DNA of 64,000 nucleotides, from positions 1 through 64,000 of the forward strand of contig JAURYL010000060.1 in NCBI GenBank assembly GCA_030653935.1. Direction: 5' to 3'. How positions within the stretch are numbered: position 1 is the first letter of the stretch; each line of letters opens with the position of its first letter. Origin of the DNA: Pseudomonadota bacterium. GTDB lineage: Bacteria; Pseudomonadota; Gammaproteobacteria; Burkholderiales; Thiobacillaceae. Below the pieces are notes generated by a model that worked only from the letters and a program-made list of their open reading frames with translations, did no database searches and was not told where the DNA came from. The position numbers were made by a program, and so were the translations under genes. This document shows, piece by piece, positions 20,677 through 33,498 of the stretch.

Positions 20677-21096
20677 ATGGCAATCCGCCAGGAGTCCGAT
20701 TTCCAGCCCATGAGCGAGATCAACGTCACGCCGCTGGTGGACGTGATGCTGGTGCTGCTGGTGATCTTCATGGTCACGGCGCCGTTCATTCTGCAATCGG
20801 TGAAAGTGCGGCTGCCGGAAACCTCGCCGGTGGCGGTGCTGAAACCGACGCCGGCGCTGGTGGTCAGCGTGCAGGCGGACGGCCTGGTGTTTCTCGGCCG
20901 CGACGCGATTGACGTGACACTGCTGGAAGCGCGACTGAAAGGTGAAATGGACAAGAACGGCGAACTCACCCTGCAACTGCGCGCCGATACCGGCGTGCCC
21001 TACGGCCGCATCACCGAAGTGATGGCCGCCGCCAGCCGCGCCGGGGTAGCCAAGCTCACCTTCATCACCGCCGCCGCGCCGCGGGAGAAAAAGTGA
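20677..21096 (+). CDS. exbD: ExbD/TolR biopolymer transport protein
   Basis: MSEINVTPLVDVMLVLLVIFMVTAP. Confidence 0.94.
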   Translation: MAIRQESDFQPMSEINVTPLVDVMLVLLVIFMVTAPFILQSVKVRLPETSPVAVLKPTPALVVSVQADGLVFLGRDAIDVTLLEARLKGEMDKNGELTLQLRADTGVPYGRITEVMAAASRAGVAKLTFITAAAPREKK

Positions 21097-23438
21097 TTCC
21101 TGCCGTACTCGCACCGGTGGCCGCCCTGGCGGCGCGCCTCGGCCCGGCGCTGGCTCGTATGGAGACACGCCACTGGGTCGCCGTTGCCGGCAGCGCCGCC
21201 CTGCACCTGGGCGTGCTGCTCGGCTTCAACCAGGCGCCGCCGCCGTTGCCGCCGCCGCTGACCTTCGAGGTCAAACTGGAGCCGCCCCCCGACGCGAAGC
21301 CACCGAAACAACGCCTGGCCGAGGCCAAGCCCAAACCTAAACCCGAGAAGGCGAAGGCGAAAAAACGCGTGGAGAAAAAGAAGCCGGCCAAAACCCGGGC
21401 GCGTGAACCGCACACCCTGCAAGCGGAATGGAAAAGCGAAACGCGACCGGCCAAGGACACCCCGGCGGTCACCCTGCCGGACGCGCGCGCCCTCGGCGTC
21501 AACCTCGCCAGCGACATCGGCCGCGCCGCGCCCGCCAAGCTAGCCACCGCCAGCAACCAACCCGGCGCCGCCAGCCCCACGGCGGCGGCCCGCGCCAGCG
21601 CCGCGAGCGCGCTGAGCGAGCCCGGCGGCAAGTCCGGCGCTGGCCAGGGCGCGAGTAGCGGCACCGAACCCGGCATCACCCTGGCCGCCGCGCAGGGGCT
21701 GGGCAAGACCCAGGCGCTCGCCGCCAACACCGGTGCCGGCGCCCAGGGGAGCGACGCGCTGGCCGGCAGCATCGCCGCCTCCGGCAACCTCGCGGCCGCC
21801 GCACTGGCCGCCAGCAGCGCCGCCGGCACCAGTCTGAACCGCGCCAGCAGCGGCGGCAGCCAGAACGTGCAGGGCAGCGATTTCAGCAGCGCCAGCCCGG
21901 GCGCCCTGGCCAGCGGCGAACCGAGCGGCGTGCGCCTGACCATGGCCGGCGTGCTCTCCAGCCTGGCGGCCCTCACCAGCGGCGGCGGCAGCCTTGCCGG
22001 CGGCCAACTTGACGGCGCGGCCGGCGTCAGCAGCGCGACCGCCGGGCAGGGCAGCCAGGCCAGCCTGGCCACCGCCGCCGGCACTGGAGCCGCCGCCGTG
22101 GTGGCCGGCGCCGGGCCGACCCACGCCAGCAGCGGTGGCGAAACCCGCGCGGCCAGCGCGCATGGCGAAGCCGCGAGCGGTGTCGCCGCCGGCACCAGCC
22201 TGGCCAGCGCCGCGCACGCCGAGGTTGTCCCCACCCGGAAATCCGGCGGCGGCGAGAGCGGCAACGTTGCTGGCGGCGGCTTGGCCGGCGCCAGTAACGC
22301 GCCGCGCGCCGAGCAGACCGCCCTGGCTCGCGCCGCCGGTGCCGGCGACAGCGCCGGCAAGGCGCCGACGCAGCGGAAAACCCTTCCCGGCGGCGGCGAG
22401 GCCGCGAGCAAGACGGCCGCCGCCGAGTCCGGCCCCGCCAGGGACGGCGACAAGCTGGCTCGGACCACCGTAGCCGCCGCACCGGCCGCGGCCGGGAAGA
22501 GTGTTACCCAGGGCCGCAATGGTGCCGGTGGCGCGCCGGGCCAGGATGCCCTCGCCAGCGCGGGTGAAGCGCCGGGTATCAGTGACGGCGCGCGCGCGTC
22601 GGCTGGCGCGGGGCAAGCCGGCGCCGCCGGCATGTTCGCCGGCAGCCTCTCCCTGGGCGCGGCGTCACCGAGCCAGAGCCGCGCCGGAACCGGTTTCGCC
22701 GGCACCAGCATGGCCCCCGCCGCCCTCGCCCCCGGTGAGCCCGGCAGCGCGCCGGGTCTGGCGGTGGCCATGGCAACCGTGCCCGTGATCCTGGAAATGC
22801 GTGGCGGCGGCGCCCGTTCCAATTTCCGCGCCGACACCGGCGAAGGTGGCGGCGGCAGCCAGCGCGCGCCGACGCCGACACTGGCGCGGACCGATGCCGG
22901 CGCCGGCGAATCCCTGCCTGGCCGTGGCGGCGACTCGCCCGGAATCGCCTCGGCGCCGCGCCAGGCCAGCGCCGGGGGTGGCGGCAACAACCCCGCCGGC
23001 AGCGGTACCTTGCAAAGTGTGCGCGTGGCGGCGGTACAGCAGATGCGCGCGGACAGCCAGGTGCAGCCGCTCGACGTGTTGGCGCCCTCCACCTACTGCC
23101 CGCTGCCCGGCCTCACACAGCCGGACAACCGCCCGCACGACACGGCGCAACTGGCCAGCGAACAGCCGGCCTATGCCAACGAGAACCCCAGCTTTTCCTT
23201 CCCCATCCGCGCCTGGGCTTATGGCCACCAGGGCCGCGCCACGGTGCGCGTGCAGGTACTGGCCGATGGCACGCCGGGCCAGATATGGCTCAAGCAGAGC
23301 AGCGGCTCCGGCATACTTGATGTGGACGCGCGGGAACAACTCGCGAAATATCGCTTCAAACCCGCCCGCAAGAACGGCCAGCCGGTCGCGGCCTGGATCG
23401 ACGTTCCGGTGGAATACCGCCTGAACGCCGACAAATAA
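21093..23438 (+). CDS. TonB family protein with very long Ala/Gly/Ser-rich linker
   Basis: N-terminal TM plus Pro/Lys segment, C-terminal YPIRAWAYGHQGRATVRVQVLADGTPGQIWLKQSSGSGILDVDAREQLAKYRFKPARKNGQPVAAWIDVPVEYRL-like TonB domain; ATGA-type overlap with exbD. Confidence 0.9.
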   Translation: MIPAVLAPVAALAARLGPALARMETRHWVAVAGSAALHLGVLLGFNQAPPPLPPPLTFEVKLEPPPDAKPPKQRLAEAKPKPKPEKAKAKKRVEKKKPAKTRAREPHTLQAEWKSETRPAKDTPAVTLPDARALGVNLASDIGRAAPAKLATASNQPGAASPTAAARASAASALSEPGGKSGAGQGASSGTEPGITLAAAQGLGKTQALAANTGAGAQGSDALAGSIAASGNLAAAALAASSAAGTSLNRASSGGSQNVQGSDFSSASPGALASGEPSGVRLTMAGVLSSLAALTSGGGSLAGGQLDGAAGVSSATAGQGSQASLATAAGTGAAAVVAGAGPTHASSGGETRAASAHGEAASGVAAGTSLASAAHAEVVPTRKSGGGESGNVAGGGLAGASNAPRAEQTALARAAGAGDSAGKAPTQRKTLPGGGEAASKTAAAESGPARDGDKLARTTVAAAPAAAGKSVTQGRNGAGGAPGQDALASAGEAPGISDGARASAGAGQAGAAGMFAGSLSLGAASPSQSRAGTGFAGTSMAPAALAPGEPGSAPGLAVAMATVPVILEMRGGGARSNFRADTGEGGGGSQRAPTPTLARTDAGAGESLPGRGGDSPGIASAPRQASAGGGGNNPAGSGTLQSVRVAAVQQMRADSQVQPLDVLAPSTYCPLPGLTQPDNRPHDTAQLASEQPAYANENPSFSFPIRAWAYGHQGRATVRVQVLADGTPGQIWLKQSSGSGILDVDAREQLAKYRFKPARKNGQPVAAWIDVPVEYRLNADK

Positions 23439-23461: not shown

Positions 23462-24937
23462 ATGAAATTACGCACCCTGCCCCTTCTGCTGGCGCTGCAC
23501 ACCGCCCCCCTGCTGGCCGCCGGCCCCGTGGTCGTCCCCGATCCCATGCAGGCCATGCAGATGGCGCTGCGCTATTACCAGATGGCCGCCAGCGCGGGCG
23601 ACGCCGAGGCGCAGACCAAGATGGGCTGGCTGTTCGAGCAGGGCCTGGGCGTGGCCAAGGATCTCGGCCAGGCGGCCAAATGGTACGAACTCTCCGCCAA
23701 GCAGAACGAGCCGATCGGCCTCTACAATCTGGCCCTGATGCTGATGCGCGGTGACGGCGTCACCAAGGATGCCGAGCAAGCGGCGCGACTGATGACCGGC
23801 GCCGCCGAACTCAACCTCGCCGCCGCTCAATCGCAACTGGCCATCATGTACGAGAAGGGCATCGGCGTCCCGGCCAACCCGGAAGCCGCCTTCACCTGGA
23901 CCCGCCGAGCCGCTGAACTCGGCGACGTGCCGGCGCAGAACAATCTGGGCATCAAGCTCGCCTATGGCATGGGCACCAAGACCGACTACGTGGAATCGGT
24001 GAAGTGGTTCACCAAGGCCGCCGAGGCCGGCAACGCCGAGGCCCAGGGCAACCTCGGCCTGATTTACAAGGAAGGCCTCGGCGGCGTCAAACAGGATCTC
24101 CTCGGCGCCGCCAACTGGCTGGCGCTGGCCGGTAGCCAGGGCCATGTGCAGTCACAGAACCGCCTCGGCTGGATGTTCGAGAAGGGCCAGGGCATTCCGA
24201 AAAACATGGCGGAAGCCGGACGCTGGTTCCGCATGGCCGCTGAAGCCGGCGACGCGCCCTCCGCCACCCACCTGGGCTGGCTGCTGGAAACCGGAGCGCT
24301 GGGCCAGGCCGACCTGAATGCCGCCCTGCCCTGGTACGAGCGCGCCGCCGCCGCCGGTGACGCCGCCGCCCAGAACAACCTCGGCCGCCTCTACCGCGAG
24401 GGCCAGGGCGTGGCCGCCGATTTCTCCAAGGCGCGCGACTGGCTGCTCAAAGCCAGCGCGAAAAACGAGCCGCTGGCCTGGTACAACCTGGCGCTGATGG
24501 CGGAACAGGGCCAGGGCCAGGCGCGCAACGAAACGGAAGCGATGGCGCTCTATAGCAAAGCCGCGGAAAAAGGCGTCGTCCTGGCGCAGAGCCGTCTCGG
24601 CTGGCTGTTGCAGAAGAACGGCAAGGCCGAGGAAGCCGTGAACTGGCTGACCCGCGCCGCCGAAGCCGGTGACATCACCGCCCAGAACAACCTGGGCGTG
24701 CTCCAGGAGCAAGGCAAGAACATGGCTGAGGCCGCGCGCTGGTACCGCAAGGCCGCCGAAGCCGGCGACAAGGTCGCCCAGCACAACTTGGGCGTACTCT
24801 TCCGCGATGGCCTGGGCATGGAGAAAAACGAAGCCGAAGCCCTCGCCTGGTTCCAGAAATCCGCCGAACAGGGCTACGCCAAGGCACAACTCAACCTTGG
24901 CCAGCTCTACGAAAAACTGGCGTCGCCGAAGAAGTAA
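23462..24937 (+). CDS. Sel1-like repeat (SLR) secreted protein
   Basis: Signal peptide then many repeats such as AEAGNAEAQGNLGLIYKEGLGG. Confidence 0.92.
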   Translation: MKLRTLPLLLALHTAPLLAAGPVVVPDPMQAMQMALRYYQMAASAGDAEAQTKMGWLFEQGLGVAKDLGQAAKWYELSAKQNEPIGLYNLALMLMRGDGVTKDAEQAARLMTGAAELNLAAAQSQLAIMYEKGIGVPANPEAAFTWTRRAAELGDVPAQNNLGIKLAYGMGTKTDYVESVKWFTKAAEAGNAEAQGNLGLIYKEGLGGVKQDLLGAANWLALAGSQGHVQSQNRLGWMFEKGQGIPKNMAEAGRWFRMAAEAGDAPSATHLGWLLETGALGQADLNAALPWYERAAAAGDAAAQNNLGRLYREGQGVAADFSKARDWLLKASAKNEPLAWYNLALMAEQGQGQARNETEAMALYSKAAEKGVVLAQSRLGWLLQKNGKAEEAVNWLTRAAEAGDITAQNNLGVLQEQGKNMAEAARWYRKAAEAGDKVAQHNLGVLFRDGLGMEKNEAEALAWFQKSAEQGYAKAQLNLGQLYEKLASPKK

Positions 24938-25430: not shown

Positions 25431-25865
25431 TCAGGGCTTCAGATAGACATAGCCTTCACGCGCCTGGAGCTTGCCGATCTCGGCGACGCCGGAAGGCACC
25501 ACCTGGGCTTCCAGAATCACGGCGCTGTCATCCAGCTTGCGTCCGGTCAGGGTGTTGCGGCAGACATCGAAGATAACGCCGCGATCCTTCAGGCCGGCCA
25601 CTTGCGGTGCGAAGGCGCCTTTCTCGTCCTTCGCCTCGTTGAGCAGGAAATCGATGCCCTTGCCGTGGGTCACCACCGTGATCTTGACGCCGGGGCTGGC
25701 ATTGAGATGGTTCTCGATGTTGCGCATGGCGACACGAGCGACACTGGCGTCGTTGACGTGATAGACGACTTTTTCCTGTACCAACGGGTCCATGCCGGCG
25801 GCGGTGGCAGTGAGGGGAACGGCGCTCGCAACCGCCAACAGCGCGGCGAATAGGACTGATTTCAT
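25431..25865 (-). CDS. Periplasmic DsrE-family protein
   Basis: Signal peptide MKSVLFAALLAVASAVPLTATAA then KVVYHVNDASVARVAMRNIENHLN...ITVVTHGKGIDFLL...VIFDVCRNTL. Confidence 0.8.
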   Translation of the reverse strand: MKSVLFAALLAVASAVPLTATAAGMDPLVQEKVVYHVNDASVARVAMRNIENHLNASPGVKITVVTHGKGIDFLLNEAKDEKGAFAPQVAGLKDRGVIFDVCRNTLTGRKLDDSAVILEAQVVPSGVAEIGKLQAREGYVYLKP

Positions 25866-25930
25866 GATGTCTTCTCCAATGTCGGGTGACGAGCAAATCG
25901 CTCATCTGTGAGATAAGACGTCCCGGTTCA

Positions 25931-25966
25931 CGGATTTATTCCATAAAGATTTCTGGAATAAATCCG
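25931..25966. promoter_or_regulatory. Perfect 13-bp inverted repeat (candidate operator) in dsrE/ECF divergent intergenic region
   Basis: CGGATTTATTCCA - 10 nt - TGGAATAAATCCG. Confidence 0.6.
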
Positions 25967-26007
25967 CCCCCCGCACCGTCATACCTTCAAATGGCGAGGA
26001 GACGCTG

Positions 26008-26556
26008 GTGCATAACCCCTTATCTTTTCTGGATTTTTCCGCCCGACGACGGCTCACGGCCCTGCGCCCGCGCCTCTATCGGCTTGCCTATGCCTGGTGC
26101 CATGACGGCCATTTGGCCGACGACCTGGCGCAGGATGCGCTGGCCAAGGCGCTGGTGCGTGGCGGCCAGTTGCGCGAGGAAGAAGCCATGGAGTCCTGGC
26201 TGTTCTCCATCCTCAACAACTGCTGGCGCGACCACCTGCGTGCGCGGCGTGAATTCGCGGATATCGACACGCTCGATGAAGTGATTCTGTCCACCGAACC
26301 CGGGCCGGATCGACACTATGCCAGCCGCCAGACCACGGCCCGGGTGCGCGACGCCATCGCCGCGTTGCCCATGGCGCAGCGCCAGGTCATCACCCTGGTG
26401 GACATCGAGGAATGCGCTTACGCCCAGGTGGCGAAGATTTTGGAGGTGCCGGTGGGGACGGTGATGAGCCGTCTCTCGCGGGCGCGCCAGGCGCTGAAAC
26501 AACGTTTATTGGCGGAAGAGGCGAAATGCCCGCCGCTGCTCAGGAGGGTGAAATGA
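26008..26556 (+). CDS. ECF-type RNA polymerase sigma factor
   Basis: Region 2 RLYRLAYAWCHDGHLADDLAQDALAKAL; region 4 LPMAQRQVITLVDIEECAYAQVAKILEVPVGTVMSRLSRARQALKQRL; GTG start. Confidence 0.93.
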   Translation: MHNPLSFLDFSARRRLTALRPRLYRLAYAWCHDGHLADDLAQDALAKALVRGGQLREEEAMESWLFSILNNCWRDHLRARREFADIDTLDEVILSTEPGPDRHYASRQTTARVRDAIAALPMAQRQVITLVDIEECAYAQVAKILEVPVGTVMSRLSRARQALKQRLLAEEAKCPPLLRRVK

Positions 26557-27281
26557 ACGACAAGACGAAAGAACCCATCTCCCAGGAATATCTTGATGCC
26601 CTGGTCGATGGCGAATTGACCGCCGACGAACGAGACCGTGCCTATCGCCGCATCGAGGAAGACGCCGATTTCAAGGCCCGCGTCTGCGAAACCCGAACCC
26701 TCAAGGAAATGGTCAAGGGCAGCTATGCCGACGTGGCCCCGGCGCACGCCGCGACCCGCCGTCGCAGTAACGGCTGGCCTCAGGCCATGGCGGCCGTTCT
26801 GATGCTGGCCGTGGGGCTCGGTGGGGGCTGGCTGGCCCGGGGTGAACTTGACCCGGCACCCGTGGTGGATCGCCTGGCCGGGCTGCCTAACGGGTACCAA
26901 TCGGTGTCTTTGAGCAGCCAGGTTGATCCGGGCAAGGTCCTGCTGCACCTGGACTCCAACGAGCCGGCGCGTCTGGGAGCGGTGCTCGACCTGGCCGAGC
27001 GCATGCTCGCGTCGAGTGGCAATGAAGGCCGCGTCGAAGTGGTCGTCAACAGCTACGGCCTCAACCTGCTGCGCCAGGACACCTCGCCCTACCGCGAGCG
27101 CATCGAACGCCTCGCCGACCAACACGCCAATCTGACCTTCATCGCCTGCGGACAGACGGTGGCGCGACTCAAGCGCGAAGGCCTCGATGTGGTGCTGGTA
27201 CCGGAAGCCAACGTCGCCAGCAGCGCCATCGGCGAAATCATCGGCCGCATGCGCGAGGGCTGGGTCTATGTGAAAGTCTGA
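26553..27281 (+). CDS. Membrane anti-sigma factor with C-terminal periplasmic DsrE-like domain
   Basis: ATGA overlap with ECF gene; N-terminal YLDALVDGELTADERDRAYRRIEEDADFKARVCETRTLKEMVKGSY (anti-sigma type), TM, then KVLLHLDSNEPARLGAVLDLAERML...VEVVVNSYGLNLL...LTFIACGQTVARL...GWVYVKV matching the neighbouring DsrE protein. Confidence 0.75.
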   Translation: MNDKTKEPISQEYLDALVDGELTADERDRAYRRIEEDADFKARVCETRTLKEMVKGSYADVAPAHAATRRRSNGWPQAMAAVLMLAVGLGGGWLARGELDPAPVVDRLAGLPNGYQSVSLSSQVDPGKVLLHLDSNEPARLGAVLDLAERMLASSGNEGRVEVVVNSYGLNLLRQDTSPYRERIERLADQHANLTFIACGQTVARLKREGLDVVLVPEANVASSAIGEIIGRMREGWVYVKV

Positions 27282-27324: not shown

Positions 27325-27430
27325 CTAGCAGCCTGTCGGACTTAGGAATCGTCGGCTGCAAATCCGGCAAAAACTGGCCTCGTCGGGGCCGATTTTCGCT
27401 ATCGACGACCAAAGCCCGACAGGCTGCTAG
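27325..27430. mobile_element. MITE-like element (106 bp)
   Basis: Terminal inverted repeats CTAGCAGCCTGTCGGACTTA / AAAGCCCGACAGGCTGCTAG (18/20), CTAG at both ends. Confidence 0.75.
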
Positions 27431-27663: not shown

Positions 27664-27697
27664 ATCTCCTGACGTACGAAGCCGATTGCGCGAGGTG

Positions 27698-28030
27698 ATG
27701 ATGGGATGGCTGACAAGATGGCTGGACAGTGGCGACAAGCATGAGCCCTTGATGTCTCGCCAGGAGTATCTGCCTGGTATGGGTCGTGTGTGCATTGCCT
27801 ACGTCGTCGATTGCATGGGTGCGATGTGCCCGCGGCCACAGTTGTTGACCATGAAAATCCTCGGGCAAATCGAAGAAGGTGAAGTGATCGAGGTGGTTTC
27901 CGATAACCCCGCCGCGGTCGAGTCATTCCCATCCCTGGCGGAAACCCTGGGGTGCGTGCATTTGCTGACGACACGGGTGGATGCCTGCTGGCAGATCTAT
28001 CTGCGCAAGGGCCTGAAGGCGGCGCATTGA
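27698..28030 (+). CDS. TusA-family sulfurtransferase
   Basis: CPxP motif CMGAMCPRPQLLTMKILGQIEEGEVIEVVSDNPAAVESFPSLAE; start ambiguous (27686 TTG or 27698 ATG). Confidence 0.85.
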   Translation: MMGWLTRWLDSGDKHEPLMSRQEYLPGMGRVCIAYVVDCMGAMCPRPQLLTMKILGQIEEGEVIEVVSDNPAAVESFPSLAETLGCVHLLTTRVDACWQIYLRKGLKAAH

Positions 28031-28073
28031 TGCGTTTTATCAACGAAACAAGCGAATTACAGGAGATCAAGTC

Positions 28074-29522
28074 GTGAACGTGAAAGCAGGCACGCTGCAA
28101 GAGGCGGGATGGATGCAACTGAATCGCCAAAAAATCTATCCGGCCGGCATTCTGCTGGCTGTAGCGGTGGGGTCCCTCTGGGCCCTGTCCATCGACACGC
28201 GCTTTTTATACCTGCTGGTCTATGTCTGGTTTGGCGTGATTTACGGCCTTTTCCTCCAGTACGGACGTTTTTGCATGGCCGCCGCGGTGCGCGACCTGTT
28301 CGCGGTGAAAGTGCCGCGCATGGCCGTCGGCATGATGATCGCGGTTGGCTTGTACGCGCTCGCGGCGGCGGCGGTGACCCTGACCGGCCACAACACCTTC
28401 CACGCACATGCGCTGGGCTGGCACGTGTTGGTCGGTGGCCTCGTGTTCGGATTCGGTTTCGTCTTCACCGGCGGCTGTGCCTCCGGCTCGCTCTACAAGA
28501 CGGGTGAAGGCAACCTCAACTCGGCCCTGGTGATTTTCTCGATCTCCTTTTCGCAAGCCCTGGTGGTCACCGCCGGCGGCTGGCTGGACGCGCTGGCCCC
28601 CTCGGCCTGGGCCGAGTCGGCCGCAGCCAAGGGCATGCCCGATGAGCTCTCCGTGACGCAGGGCTGGTTCGACATGTTTACCGCCGGCTACATCTGGGAC
28701 CGCAAGGGCGCGACGCTGGCCGAGATGCTGGGCATGGGCGAGCCGGGCATGACGGCGATCTTCATCAACACCTTCGTGAACGCCATCTTCCCCGTGCTGA
28801 TCATCCTGGTGGCGCTGTACTTCTTCTATTACCGCAAGAGCTACCTGCGCAAGACCGCGAAGACGGCGCCGACCCTGGCGGATGAACTGGGCGGCCTCTG
28901 GCACATGTGCATCAGCTCGAAGAACACCGCCATCGCCGGCGTCGGCCTCGGCATCTTCGCCGGCCTGCACATGTGGGTGACCGGCGTGCTGCGCGAGCAC
29001 TACAACATCTTCAACTTCGGCGAGCTGCTCTCCGCCATGGGCTACAACAACGGTCTCTCCATCGACGGTTCCGTATTCGACCCGGGCTATTGGTACATCA
29101 CCACCCAGGAAGCCCAGTGGGGCGGCTGGGTGCTGGAGAACCTGGGCTTCGAGATGCGTGACAACGTGTTCTTCGGCCTCGAGAACGGCCTGCCCAATCC
29201 CCTGCTCAACGCCCCCGGCTTCATGTCCATCGGCATCATCCTGGGCGCTGCCGTGCTGGCGCTCGCCCGGCGTGAGTTCAAGTGGAAGATGCCCACCGTC
29301 GAGACAGCGACCTTCGCCATCGTCGGCGGCATCCTGATGGGCATCGGCGCCCGTCTGGCGATGGGCTGCAACATCGGCGCCTTCTTCGCGACCGTGACCA
29401 ATGGAGACCCCAGCGGCTGGATATTCCTGATCGGCATGGTGGGAGGCGGCTATGTGGGGGTGAAGGTGTTCACCTACTGGATGGACTGGAAGATGGCCCG
29501 CGATGGCGGCTGTGGCCTGTAA
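28074..29522 (+). CDS. YeeE/YedE (TsuA-like) sulfur-compound transporter
   Basis: GGCASGSLYKTGEGNLNSALV and RLAMGCNIGAFFA conserved Cys motifs; multi-TM. Confidence 0.9.
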   Translation: MNVKAGTLQEAGWMQLNRQKIYPAGILLAVAVGSLWALSIDTRFLYLLVYVWFGVIYGLFLQYGRFCMAAAVRDLFAVKVPRMAVGMMIAVGLYALAAAAVTLTGHNTFHAHALGWHVLVGGLVFGFGFVFTGGCASGSLYKTGEGNLNSALVIFSISFSQALVVTAGGWLDALAPSAWAESAAAKGMPDELSVTQGWFDMFTAGYIWDRKGATLAEMLGMGEPGMTAIFINTFVNAIFPVLIILVALYFFYYRKSYLRKTAKTAPTLADELGGLWHMCISSKNTAIAGVGLGIFAGLHMWVTGVLREHYNIFNFGELLSAMGYNNGLSIDGSVFDPGYWYITTQEAQWGGWVLENLGFEMRDNVFFGLENGLPNPLLNAPGFMSIGIILGAAVLALARREFKWKMPTVETATFAIVGGILMGIGARLAMGCNIGAFFATVTNGDPSGWIFLIGMVGGGYVGVKVFTYWMDWKMARDGGCGL

Positions 29523-29557
29523 TGGCATTGATTTGAAAAGAGACCCAGGAGACAACG

Positions 29558-29809
29558 ATGGCAATGAGTTTTGAAAATACCGGCAACGGCGAATGGACGC
29601 TGAACGTAACCGGGTATTCCTGCCCGCATCCGCAGATGTACACCAAGAAAGCCCTGCAGAAGATCGCGAGCGGCGAGGTCCTGACACTGCTGTTCGACAA
29701 CCCTTCCTCTGGCGAGTCGATCGCATCCATGTGCGAAGCGGAAGGCAATGACCTGATCGATCGCCAGGAACAAGACGGCAACTTCGTCTGGAAAATCAGG
29801 AAGGTTTGA
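29558..29809 (+). CDS. TusA-family sulfurtransferase
   Basis: CPxP motif VTGYSCPHPQMYTKKALQKIASGEVLTLLFDNPSS. Confidence 0.87.
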   Translation: MAMSFENTGNGEWTLNVTGYSCPHPQMYTKKALQKIASGEVLTLLFDNPSSGESIASMCEAEGNDLIDRQEQDGNFVWKIRKV

Positions 29810-29812
29810 GTG

Positions 29813-30124
29813 ATGCGACTGGGAATTGTAGTGACCGACGCGGCTCATGCCGCCGCCGCCTCCGGCCTTATCAGCGCGGCACGCGCCCGCGACTGGGTGG
29901 CGGAGTGTTTTCTCACGGACACCGGCGTAATGCTGCTGGCCGACGCGCAATTCGTATCGCTGGCGCGCGCCGTACCCGGCAGCGTCATGGTCTGCGAGCA
30001 CAGTGTCGCTCGCTTTGCGGGCGGCGCTTTCGATATCCATGGGCTATCGGACGACGTCGTGGTCGGCGGCCAGTACCAGGATGCCGAGCTCGTTCACCGC
30101 TGCGACAAAGTGCTGGTTTTCTGA
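29813..30124 (+). CDS. DsrE-like small protein
   Basis: MRLGIVVTDAAHAAAASGLISAARARDWVAECFLTDTGVMLL; DsrE/F-like fold by pattern, position in tus/dsr-like operon. Confidence 0.6.
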   Translation: MRLGIVVTDAAHAAAASGLISAARARDWVAECFLTDTGVMLLADAQFVSLARAVPGSVMVCEHSVARFAGGAFDIHGLSDDVVVGGQYQDAELVHRCDKVLVF

Positions 30125-30655: not shown

Positions 30656-32137
30656 ATGCAATATCGAATGAGTTTGAAACTGGCGGCATCGGCCGCGTTG
30701 GTGGCCGGAATAATCCTGGTCGGTTGCGGTGGTGGTGGCGGCAGCAGCGGCACCGTCAATGGCGTGACCTACACGATCAACAACGCGGGACAGATCGCTC
30801 AGGAATCCGATGCCAACTACAACAACAACCAGAACGGTCTGATCACGGCCACCACGCTGAAGAACTGGATCGCCGACTGGACCAACAACCGTCCCGCCGG
30901 CGTCACCGGCAAGCTGATCATCCTGCAAGTCGCTGCGGGACCGGCGGGCGCCGAGTACATCAAACCCAACGGCACCACGGTCTTCACCTACCTTTCCCCA
31001 TCCTCGGAATGGATACAGACCCGGAACAACGGCGTCATCGAAACGTCGAGCATGGTCCCCGACGGCGGCCAGATGGACGGTCTGTTCAAGAAATACAACA
31101 TCGACCCGACCAAGGACATGATCGTCGCGGCCATGGGCAACGGCAGCACCGGCAATGCCATGTCGCAAGGCCGCATCTGGTATGCGCTACGTTACTGGGG
31201 CGTCGACAAGAAGAACCTGGCGATCCTGAATGGCGGCAACCAGTGGCTGACCGGCAACGAGATCGCGCCCGCAGACTTCGCCGCCATCGCCAGCACGGCA
31301 CCCGACAACGGCACTCATGCCGTCAAGGAACTGACGGCGGACAATACCCAGCTGCAGGCCACGGTGGGCGACCTGCTGAGCGTCTTGCCCGGCTCCGACA
31401 GCAACGTCCTGAATGACGGCATCATGATCTGGGATGCCCGCAGCCTGCGCCAGTACAGCGCCGGCGAAATGTCCGAAAAGGGCGAGGACAACGATCCGGA
31501 TACGGCCGGCACCCAGGCATGCGCCACCGCTTACTGCGTCCCGACCAATACCAGCAACTATATCAACACGTTCCAGAGCAACGGCTCGCGCCAGGGCCAC
31601 CCCTGGGGCACGCTGCAGTTGCAGTACACCCACATGCTCGACGCCACCAAGGGCTACAGCTACAAGCCCAAGGCCGAGCTGGCCGCCTACCTCACCGGCG
31701 CCAGCGACGCCAACGGCATCGGCTTCGTGGGCGCGGTATGGCCTGGTCGGCAATGGCAAGGCCTATCAGAACGGTGACACCATCTTCGTCTACTGCGAGA
31801 CCACCTTCCGGGCCATGATCACCGGCATCGCCAGTGCCGTCATCCTCGGCAAGCCCACCCGCTTCTACGATGGCGCCATGGTGGAATGGAACACCTGTCC
31901 TACATCATGGACAAGGATGGCAAGTACATCCTGCCCAGCGACTCCCCGTGGCGCACCGATGTGAAGTCGTTCTTCCGGCCCTCCACCAGTACCGCCCTGG
32001 TCAACCCGCGCACCGTGACGGCCCCCTACGGTGCCAAGACCAATGCGATCATCACGGCCGACAAGGCGTACAAGACCGGGCAGAGTGTTCCCACCAGCGT
32101 TGGCAGCGGCCTCCCCGGCAATCCTTGTGGCGGCTGA
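30656..32137 (+). CDS. Rhodanese-like lipoprotein (interrupted by two compensating frameshifts)
   Basis: Lipobox GIILVGCGG; reading frame 30656-~31735, then ~31740-31880 in the next frame containing rhodanese loop VYCETTFRAM (CX4R), then ~31886-32137 back in the original frame (SYIMDKDGKYILPSDSPWRTD). Confidence 0.75.
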
Positions 32138-32270
32138 ACCGCTTCGCTCTCAAGTCAATCGCCGGGCCACCCCAAGATTGACTTGGCCCCCTCGGGGGGC
32201 GGCTCGGACGCTTTTTCCGAGCCGGGGGCACAGCTGATCCCTCAATCCAGGCCCATCTCAGCGTGATTGC

Positions 32271-33498
32271 ATGATGCAAACTTTCGTCACCCGCGGCTTC
32301 GCGACATTGGGCAGGTATTCATTGTTGATCGGCGCTGTTTCACTGCTCGCCATGGCGGGCTGCCAGCGCCAGCAGCCACCGGAATCGATCGAGGCCTTTC
32401 TCGACAGCCATTGGCGGGACCCGGTCCCCGCGCAGGGGCAGCCCCCCGCCCACTTCAGCCCGGTCGAAGCCTCGCTCGACCCGGAAGCGTGCGCGACCTG
32501 CCACGCCTCGCAATACCAGGAATGGCGTACCGCCCTGCACAGTCACACCATGGGCGCGGGCATCCGCTGGCAATTCGAACTGCTCGGCCAGGAGGAGAGT
32601 AACCGCTGCCTGCGTTGCCATGCGCCGCTGGCCGAACAGAAGGCCCTGGTTGCCCGCGCCCAGGGCTGGGGCAATGCGCCCAGTTCGCCCCCCCCCCGCT
32701 TACGTTCCCGAATCGCTGGCCACCAGCGGACTGAACTGCGCGTCATGCCATGTCCGAGGCCATCAACGCTTCGGGCCACCGGCCCGCGCCACTGCCGTCA
32801 AGGATGCGCCGCATGGCGGCTTCACCGCCTCCGCGGCCTTCCAGGACAGCCGCTTCTGCGCCCATTGCCACCAGTTTCCCGAGGACGGCCCGAGCCTCGC
32901 CGGAAAACTTCGGGAGGACACCTACCAGCAGTGGCTGGCAAGCGACTATGCCGGCAAGCAATCCTGCCAGAACTGCCATATGCCGGAGCGCAAGCACCTC
33001 TGGCGCGGCATCCATGACCCGGACATGCTGCGTCGGGGCCTGGCGGTCGACCTCAAGCTGACACGCCTGGAGGCCGGCGCCTATCGCGCGGAAGTGGAAG
33101 CCCGCAACCAGGGTGCCGGGCACCACCTGCCCACCTACATGGTGCCGAAGATCGACCTCGTCCTCACCCTGCATCAGGCGGGCGCCGCCCCGGTCGAACT
33201 GGCGCGCGACGTGATCGGCTGGAAAGCCGACGTGACGATGCAGCGGGAAGAATTCGACACCCGCTTGGCGGCGGGATCGGCCAGACACTACGCCCACGCC
33301 TTCGTGGCGCCAGGCAAGCCCGGCTGGCATGTCGAACTGAGCGTGGAAGTGGCCCCGCGGGAACACTACGAACGGATGTTCCAGTACAGCCTGGTCAATG
33401 TCTCCATGAGCCGCGCCTCCTCGAATTTGCTGAAGACCGCCATCGCCGAAGCCGCCGCCACCCGCTACACGGCCCTGCGCCTGACGGCGAAGCCTTGA
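32271..33498 (+). CDS. Pentaheme c-type cytochrome lipoprotein, frameshifted at a C10 tract
   Basis: Lipobox LLAMAGCQ; heme motifs CATCH, CLRCH (frame 1), CASCH, CAHCH, CQNCH (frame 2); frame change at poly-C 32688-32697. Confidence 0.8.

Follow-up and report, generated by a model that had tools for sequence, protein, structure and literature searches.

An anti-sigma factor with a predicted DsrE-fold domain, a likely sensor of external sulfur food in sulfur-oxidizing bacteria

ECF sigma factors are held at the membrane by single-pass anti-sigma factors. The described pairs closest to the locus reported here are those of ECF26, namely RpoE1-EcfR1 and RpoE4-EcfR4 of Sinorhizobium meliloti, along with SigE of Starkeya novella. 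They resemble it in having an ECF sigma factor with an adjoining single-pass anti-sigma factor, GGAAT/CGTC promoters, a small regulon, a link to inorganic sulfur and, in S. meliloti, autoregulation (PMC3511301, PMC6180224, PMC6527743). For the sulfite-responsive RpoE4 and SigE, a -35 of GGAAT and a -10 of CGTC were mapped together with the start sites (PMC6527743), and the promoter of the S. meliloti rpoE1 operon is GGAATAAATCC...GTCTTATC (PMC6180224). How the anti-sigma factors of ECF26 sense sulfite is stated to be unknown (PMC6527743), and the sensing of external sulfur by regulators of sulfur oxidation has been described as poorly understood (PMC11582611).

Two further systems bear comparison. 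In Hyphomicrobium denitrificans, as proposed below for the present system, sulfane sulfur controls sox genes, through SoxR, sHdrR and the YeeE-like SoxT1B (PMC11582611, PMC12423496). SoxR and sHdrR, however, are ArsR-type repressors and SoxT1B is a membrane signal transducer, whereas the sensor described here would be periplasmic and joined to the regulator. In Arcobacter butzleri, which belongs to another phylum, sox genes are activated by ECF sigma-2 (PMC3445524). No fusion of an anti-sigma factor with a DsrE domain was described in the open-access literature that we searched (most subscription papers lay outside this scope). The component parts are known; their combination, its breadth and the sox link have probably not been described.

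The locus lies in a stretch of 64,000 nucleotides, referred to as the window (contig JAURYL010000060.1 of assembly GCA_030653935.1, Thiobacillaceae). Its features are as follows.

25431 to 25865, minus strand: divergent gene for a secreted DsrE-family protein with C102 (Pfam DsrE, 5.8e-10; signal peptide judged by eye).
25917 to 25942, minus strand: predicted ECF promoter of dsrE, GGAATAAATCCG-N10-CGTC as read on that strand (motif search).
25931 to 25966, no strand: perfect 12-bp inverted repeat CGGATTTATTCC / GGAATAAATCCG, made by two back-to-back -35 elements (sequence).
25955 to 25980, plus strand: predicted ECF promoter of the sigma/anti-sigma operon, GGAATAAATCCG-N10-CGTC (motif search).
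26008 to 26556, plus strand: ECF sigma factor gene, with a GTG start and an SD-like gaggag just 5' (Sigma70_r2, 4.2e-13; Sigma70_r4_2, 1.7e-15).
26553 to 27281, plus strand: anti-sigma factor of 242 aa with a C-terminal DsrE-fold domain (BLASTP, profile search, AlphaFold2 model, Foldseek).
26553 to 26747, plus strand: putative N-terminal cytoplasmic anti-sigma domain, containing C45 (codon 26685-26687; helices 11-18, 24-36 and 38-59 in the model, weak profile matches).
26775 to 26846, plus strand: single transmembrane helix, aa 75-98 (AlphaFold2 model and sequence).
26898 to 27278, plus strand: DsrE-fold domain, aa 116-242, inferred to be periplasmic (Foldseek, 1l1s at E=2.3e-9, TMt 0.86, rmsd 2.0).
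27147 to 27149, plus strand: codon of the invariant Cys199, which aligns with a Cys in both MTH1491 (ACSNT) and the partner DsrE (VCRNT).

The sigma factor has regions 2 and 4 only, as judged by its Pfam matches. Its stop codon TGA (26554-26556) is overlapped by the anti-sigma ATG at 26553, giving ATGA. Translational coupling of the two genes had been claimed on this ground; the coordinates and the overlap held, and the overlap is retained in most relatives.

The original prediction was that the protein combines an anti-sigma-type N-terminus and one transmembrane segment with a DsrE-like C-terminus, that the latter parallels the DsrE protein encoded next door, and that both retain one Cys at the same place. 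When the fused domain was compared with the neighbouring DsrE protein by BLASTP, 28% identity was found over 120 aa (E=9e-8), and C199 was aligned with C102. The solved DsrE-like protein MTH1491 was also matched by sequence (4.6e-11, or 2.4e-13 using the family profile). The AlphaFold2 model, run on an alignment of 53 sequences, showed helices 11-18, 24-36 and 38-59 bundled at the N-terminus, then a membrane helix (75-98) and, at the C-terminus, an alpha/beta domain with a pLDDT of 94-98 over most of its length. The top five Foldseek matches of the model in the PDB were all DsrE-like, the best being 1l1s (TM-score 0.86). Hence, all three parts of the prediction held, the N-terminal sequence match being weak, and the comparison of folds, which could have refuted it, found a DsrE fold. 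The C-terminal domain of the 26553-27281 product has this fold according to the model. As the full-chain pTM was only 0.59, no prediction is made of how the domains are arranged. The fused domain resembles the MTH1491-type DsrE/DsrF-like proteins (1l1s, 2pd2) in its fold, the position of its Cys, a conserved Arg in an L-R-D stretch and a C-terminal G-W-x-Y. Those proteins are free-standing, whereas the domain described here is tethered to a membrane helix and an anti-sigma domain.

The window's anti-sigma protein fell below the cut-off of Pfam DsrE (PF02635), whereas the neighbouring DsrE passed; at E<0.001 the same model recognised 2/53 fusion relatives. The fused domain has been left unannotated because Pfam DsrE misses both the window protein and nearly all of its relatives. 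Neither Pfam nor NCBIfam gave anything above cut-off for the 242-aa protein, and no NCBIfam model matched more than one of the 53 relatives. Curated anti-sigma and DsrE families were considered as a ready name for the fusion protein, and none fits. We assign the domain, by its fold and its profile match to 1l1s, to a divergent DsrE subfamily.

Sequence matches of the N-terminal part were weak (zf-HC2, 0.046; MucA 6in7, 0.099; RseA 8z6g, 0.16). Its assignment as an anti-sigma domain rests, therefore, on the operon position, the membrane helix and the helical model. Two features of class I anti-sigma factors were seen, namely a helical domain (by model) and a cognate sigma gene in the same operon. 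The ZAS motif HxxxCxxC was not present, the N-terminal part of the window protein having the single cysteine C45. RseA and MucA share the layout of an N-terminal helical sigma-binding region, a transmembrane helix and a periplasmic regulatory part; their periplasmic domain and signal, however, are unrelated to those of the window protein. An Arg-rich stretch precedes the membrane helix on its N-terminal side, from which an N-in/C-out orientation is inferred by the positive-inside rule. That the product binds and inhibits its ECF sigma factor is also an inference, made without binding data.

Conservation of the cysteine in homologues was a check that could have spoken against a role for it, and it did not. 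C199 was invariant in 50/50 distinct full-length close sequences and in 36/36 of a class-level set. In the close sequences D19, L22, G88, G92-W93, L145, G169, R174, L215, W237 and Y239 were invariant as well; in the class-level set H132, W237 and Y239, like C199, were each found in 36/36, while the residues right after the Cys varied. The cytoplasmic C45 was nearly as constant (49/50 and 34/36, respectively), and this near-invariant second Cys stands as a counterpoint to sensing by C199. A scan of genome contigs employed a peptide pattern that includes C199; the set so obtained was left out of these counts.

Among the relatives, 83/150 matched the anti-sigma/DsrE protein, and most of the best matches were full length. 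The full-length fusion was present in 67/369 Gammaproteobacteria (GTDB sense) when genomes were drawn evenly from the class, some of the fusion genomes carrying two or three copies. In a phylum-wide draw it occurred only in genomes from the window's own order and none was found outside the Gammaproteobacteria; the other Pseudomonadota in that draw had stand-alone secreted DsrE proteins and RsiW-like anti-sigma factors. No relative of the fusion protein was found in IMG/VR, and the plasmids searched held stand-alone DsrE only. Partial matches confined to the DsrE part, considered as split or other fusions, turned out to be secreted stand-alone proteins, or genes cut by an N run or a contig end. 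The fusion is carried by genomes of Thiobacillus, Sulfuritalea, Sideroxydans and Hydrogenophilales, among others. Many of the genomes sampled are metagenome bins; isolates with the fusion include T. thioparus DSM 505 and Thiobacillus denitrificans RG and DSM 12475. One genome (G229; L201, L202, L203) has three divergent fused anti-sigma genes, every one of them paired with a separate sigma gene, possibly for several parallel sulfur signals.

In a tree of 84 DsrE domains, all 44 fused domains formed one clade (support 100/99), with soluble DsrE proteins from alphaproteobacteria as nearer relatives than the divergent partner. The resemblance to the neighbour thus held as a similarity, but the tree rules out that the fused domain is a recent copy of the neighbouring dsrE. 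The fusion is an old family with a single origin. As a side observation, the near relatives of the fused domain include alphaproteobacterial secreted DsrE proteins (L179-L185; TSPVK ... GWSYVRP), two of whose genes (L179 and L184) adjoin a gene resembling that of a solute-binding protein.

The secreted DsrE partner itself had 69 distinct homologues, with the Cys kept in 68/69, and a divergent DsrE gene adjoined the sigma/anti-sigma pair in 52/69 loci. The neighbour position was held by different DsrE subfamilies in different groups. At about one quarter of loci no divergent DsrE was detectable, and there too the Cys of the anti-sigma DsrE domain was kept. These data bear on a reading in which the DsrE domain does no chemical sensing of its own and is a docking site for the secreted partner, serving as negative feedback or as a sulfur-loaded ligand, as RseB does on RseA. 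DsrE-family proteins form oligomers; the divergent dsrE gene is conserved, has a promoter in common with the operon and is supplied by different subfamilies in different groups, all of which would suit docking. Nevertheless, the retention of the anti-sigma Cys at loci without a detectable partner speaks against it, and we consider this reading very unlikely.

Genes of sulfur oxidation accompanied the fusion. In the class sample soxB was present in 66/67 fusion genomes versus 85/302 others, and dsrA in 55/67 versus 66/302; one or the other was present in 67/67. The sample was spread over families and is phylogenetically non-independent, so that p-values are indicative. The protein could alternatively be an anti-sigma factor for general envelope or redox stress. 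Its DsrE fold would then serve as a scaffold, C199 being a relic of that fold, or the redox sensor would be the cytoplasmic C45. The near-equal conservation of C45 and C199 favors this. Against it, the fusion is restricted to soxB/dsrA genomes, sulfur genes stand behind the promoter motif (see below) and C199 is invariant although the residues directly after it vary. Such a role seems very improbable, and sensing through C199 remains the preferred reading.

The dsrE/sigma intergenic region contains two divergent predicted promoters of ECF type, GGAATAA-N15-CGTC, whose -35 elements are the arms of the 12-bp inverted repeat. When motif sites were sought in 50 distinct loci, they faced the sigma gene in 48/50, the dsrE side in 38/50 and both in 36/50, against a shuffled-sequence control of about 0.1 sites per set. 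The base after CGT had been left free in the search pattern and was C in 77/77 sites with the main spacing. The predicted promoters match the ECF26 criterion of GGAATA / CGTC (PMC6180224, PMC6527743), a promoter mapped for sigma factors of that group responding to sulfite/thiosulfate, and the S. meliloti rpoE1-operon promoter nearly equals the window's minus-strand site. In the window's own genome, GGAATAW-N15-CGTC matched only the two divergent sites at the locus.

Further sites were found elsewhere in other genomes. In Thiobacillus-type genomes (L072-L078, L082, L083) the motif recurs before a second secreted DsrE paralogue, the distance being 45-84 bp in almost every case read. In 38 fusion genomes of other families there were 82 exact sites, 27 at fusion loci and 55 elsewhere; eight of these 55 lay upstream of soxB, on the same strand and within 3 kb (expected 0.026). 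The distance to soxB was 60-172 bp for three of them and about 2.4-2.6 kb for five. Where the longer-distance cases were read, sox genes lay between, SoxX, SoxY, SoxZ and SoxA scoring above curated cut-offs at individual loci. Another site preceded a Sulf_transp (YeeE/YedE transporter) gene, and another a secreted DsrE gene. A site before soxB or a sox cluster was thus present in 8/38 fusion genomes and in 0/40 soxB genomes without the fusion (Fisher p=0.002); in the latter, 17 sites were counted, fewer than the 38 of a reversed-pattern control, and soxB had none upstream. Of the other sites that fusion genomes carry away from the fusion loci, many are not followed by any obvious sulfur gene and could be due to chance. 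In the own genome of the window, the sox region and soxB had no convincing promoter match. Direct control of sox is therefore not general; what stays constant in the regulon is the sigma/anti-sigma operon, in most cases joined by the secreted DsrE, and some lineages have sox in addition.

The link to sulfur that had been part of the original prediction is supported by the promoter motif, the sox and dsrE target genes and the co-occurrence with soxB/dsrA. Its other part, that a persulfide on C199 releases the sigma factor, remains an inference; thiosulfate, sulfite, tetrathionate or docking of the partner DsrE are not excluded. In one alternative the switch is the same but the inducer is sulfite (or tetrathionate), with C199 as an S-sulfonate or S-thiosulfonate and no persulfide. 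In its favor, S. meliloti and St. novella have sulfite-inducible ECF26 relatives with this promoter, and RpoE1 of St. novella is linked to tetrathionate (PMC6527743). Against it, the ECF26 systems have a different, RsiW-like periplasmic domain (PMC6180224), and the targets found here were sox, YeeE-type transport and DsrE proteins, not sulfite oxidase (no genome-wide search for sor was made). Known ECF26 targets, by comparison, include sulfite oxidase (sorT, sorA). We regard this alternative as unlikely and prefer sulfane sulfur as the signal.

Sigma relatives at 35-42% identity, some with the same promoter, adjoin anti-sigma factors with an RsiW-like C-terminus; such proteins end differently from the window protein, whose corresponding domain has the DsrE fold. 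The most fitting description of the system is that of an ECF26-like pair whose RsiW-like periplasmic sensor domain has been exchanged for a DsrE sulfur-relay domain, and it is likely that sulfane sulfur on C199 frees the sigma factor, although ligand, persulfide step and release are inferred. Through its N-terminal helices, the coupled anti-sigma factor would keep the ECF sigma factor (26008-26556) at the inner membrane. The periplasmic part of the anti-sigma factor would be a sulfur-relay domain of DsrE type, in which C199 is the one cysteine that never varies. A Cys serves as the sulfur carrier in DsrE-family proteins. Thiosulfate or another reduced sulfur compound would place sulfane sulfur onto C199, directly or via the co-induced secreted DsrE. 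The DsrE domain, altered or re-assembled, would make the anti-sigma factor let go of the sigma factor, or be cleaved off. The freed sigma factor would then transcribe genes with GGAATAA-N15-CGTC, i.e., its own operon and usually the divergent secreted dsrE, to which various relatives may add further secreted dsrE genes, a YeeE-family sulfur transporter and the sox genes of thiosulfate oxidation. There is no direct evidence for ligand, persulfide or sigma binding, and the binding of a persulfide and the formation of oligomers by the fused domain are inferred without protein data.

The fusion protein would then, as appears likely by inference, be a sensor that tells sulfur-oxidizing bacteria of external sulfur food. 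A bolder reading, for and against which we would give equal weight, is that of a new class of periplasmic sulfur receptor. Throughout the sulfur-oxidizing Gammaproteobacteria, the DsrE domain of such a membrane anti-sigma factor would be loaded with sulfane sulfur by the Sox system or by secreted DsrE carriers, and thiosulfate outside the cell would thus be signalled straight to transcription with no sulfur having to be taken up. What the family offers is a specific candidate for the receptor, in which a single cysteine is invariant and for which a promoter is defined and targets are available. Since the fusion is present in the cultured strains T. denitrificans DSM 12475 and T. thioparus DSM 505, it can be tested by point mutation and a reporter. 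Secreted DsrE proteins of unknown function gain a candidate role through this family, which may also lend itself to use as a modular sulfur biosensor.

Some observations were made on the surroundings of the locus. A cluster of TusA, a YeeE/YedE transporter, TusA and a DsrE-like ORF lies just downstream (27686-30121); it was rejected as a conserved part of the system, being found beside the sigma pair in 0-1 of 92 loci. A 22-nt inverted repeat (91%, CTAGCAGCCTGTCGGACTTAGG ..., arms 62 nt apart) lies at 27325-27430, after the anti-sigma gene and before the next ORF, and resembles a small mobile or REP-type element. The region 30656-33498 encodes an ExtH-like lipoprotein (selenite/tellurite operon type) followed by multihaem MtrC/c554-like cytochromes, with a rhodanese-like stretch at 31434 in another frame. 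On the other side, a 781-aa ORF at 21093-23438 reads as TonB-type with a very long Ala/Gly/Ser-rich middle, and a Sel1-like repeat protein comes next at 23462-24937; both names rest on reading alone.
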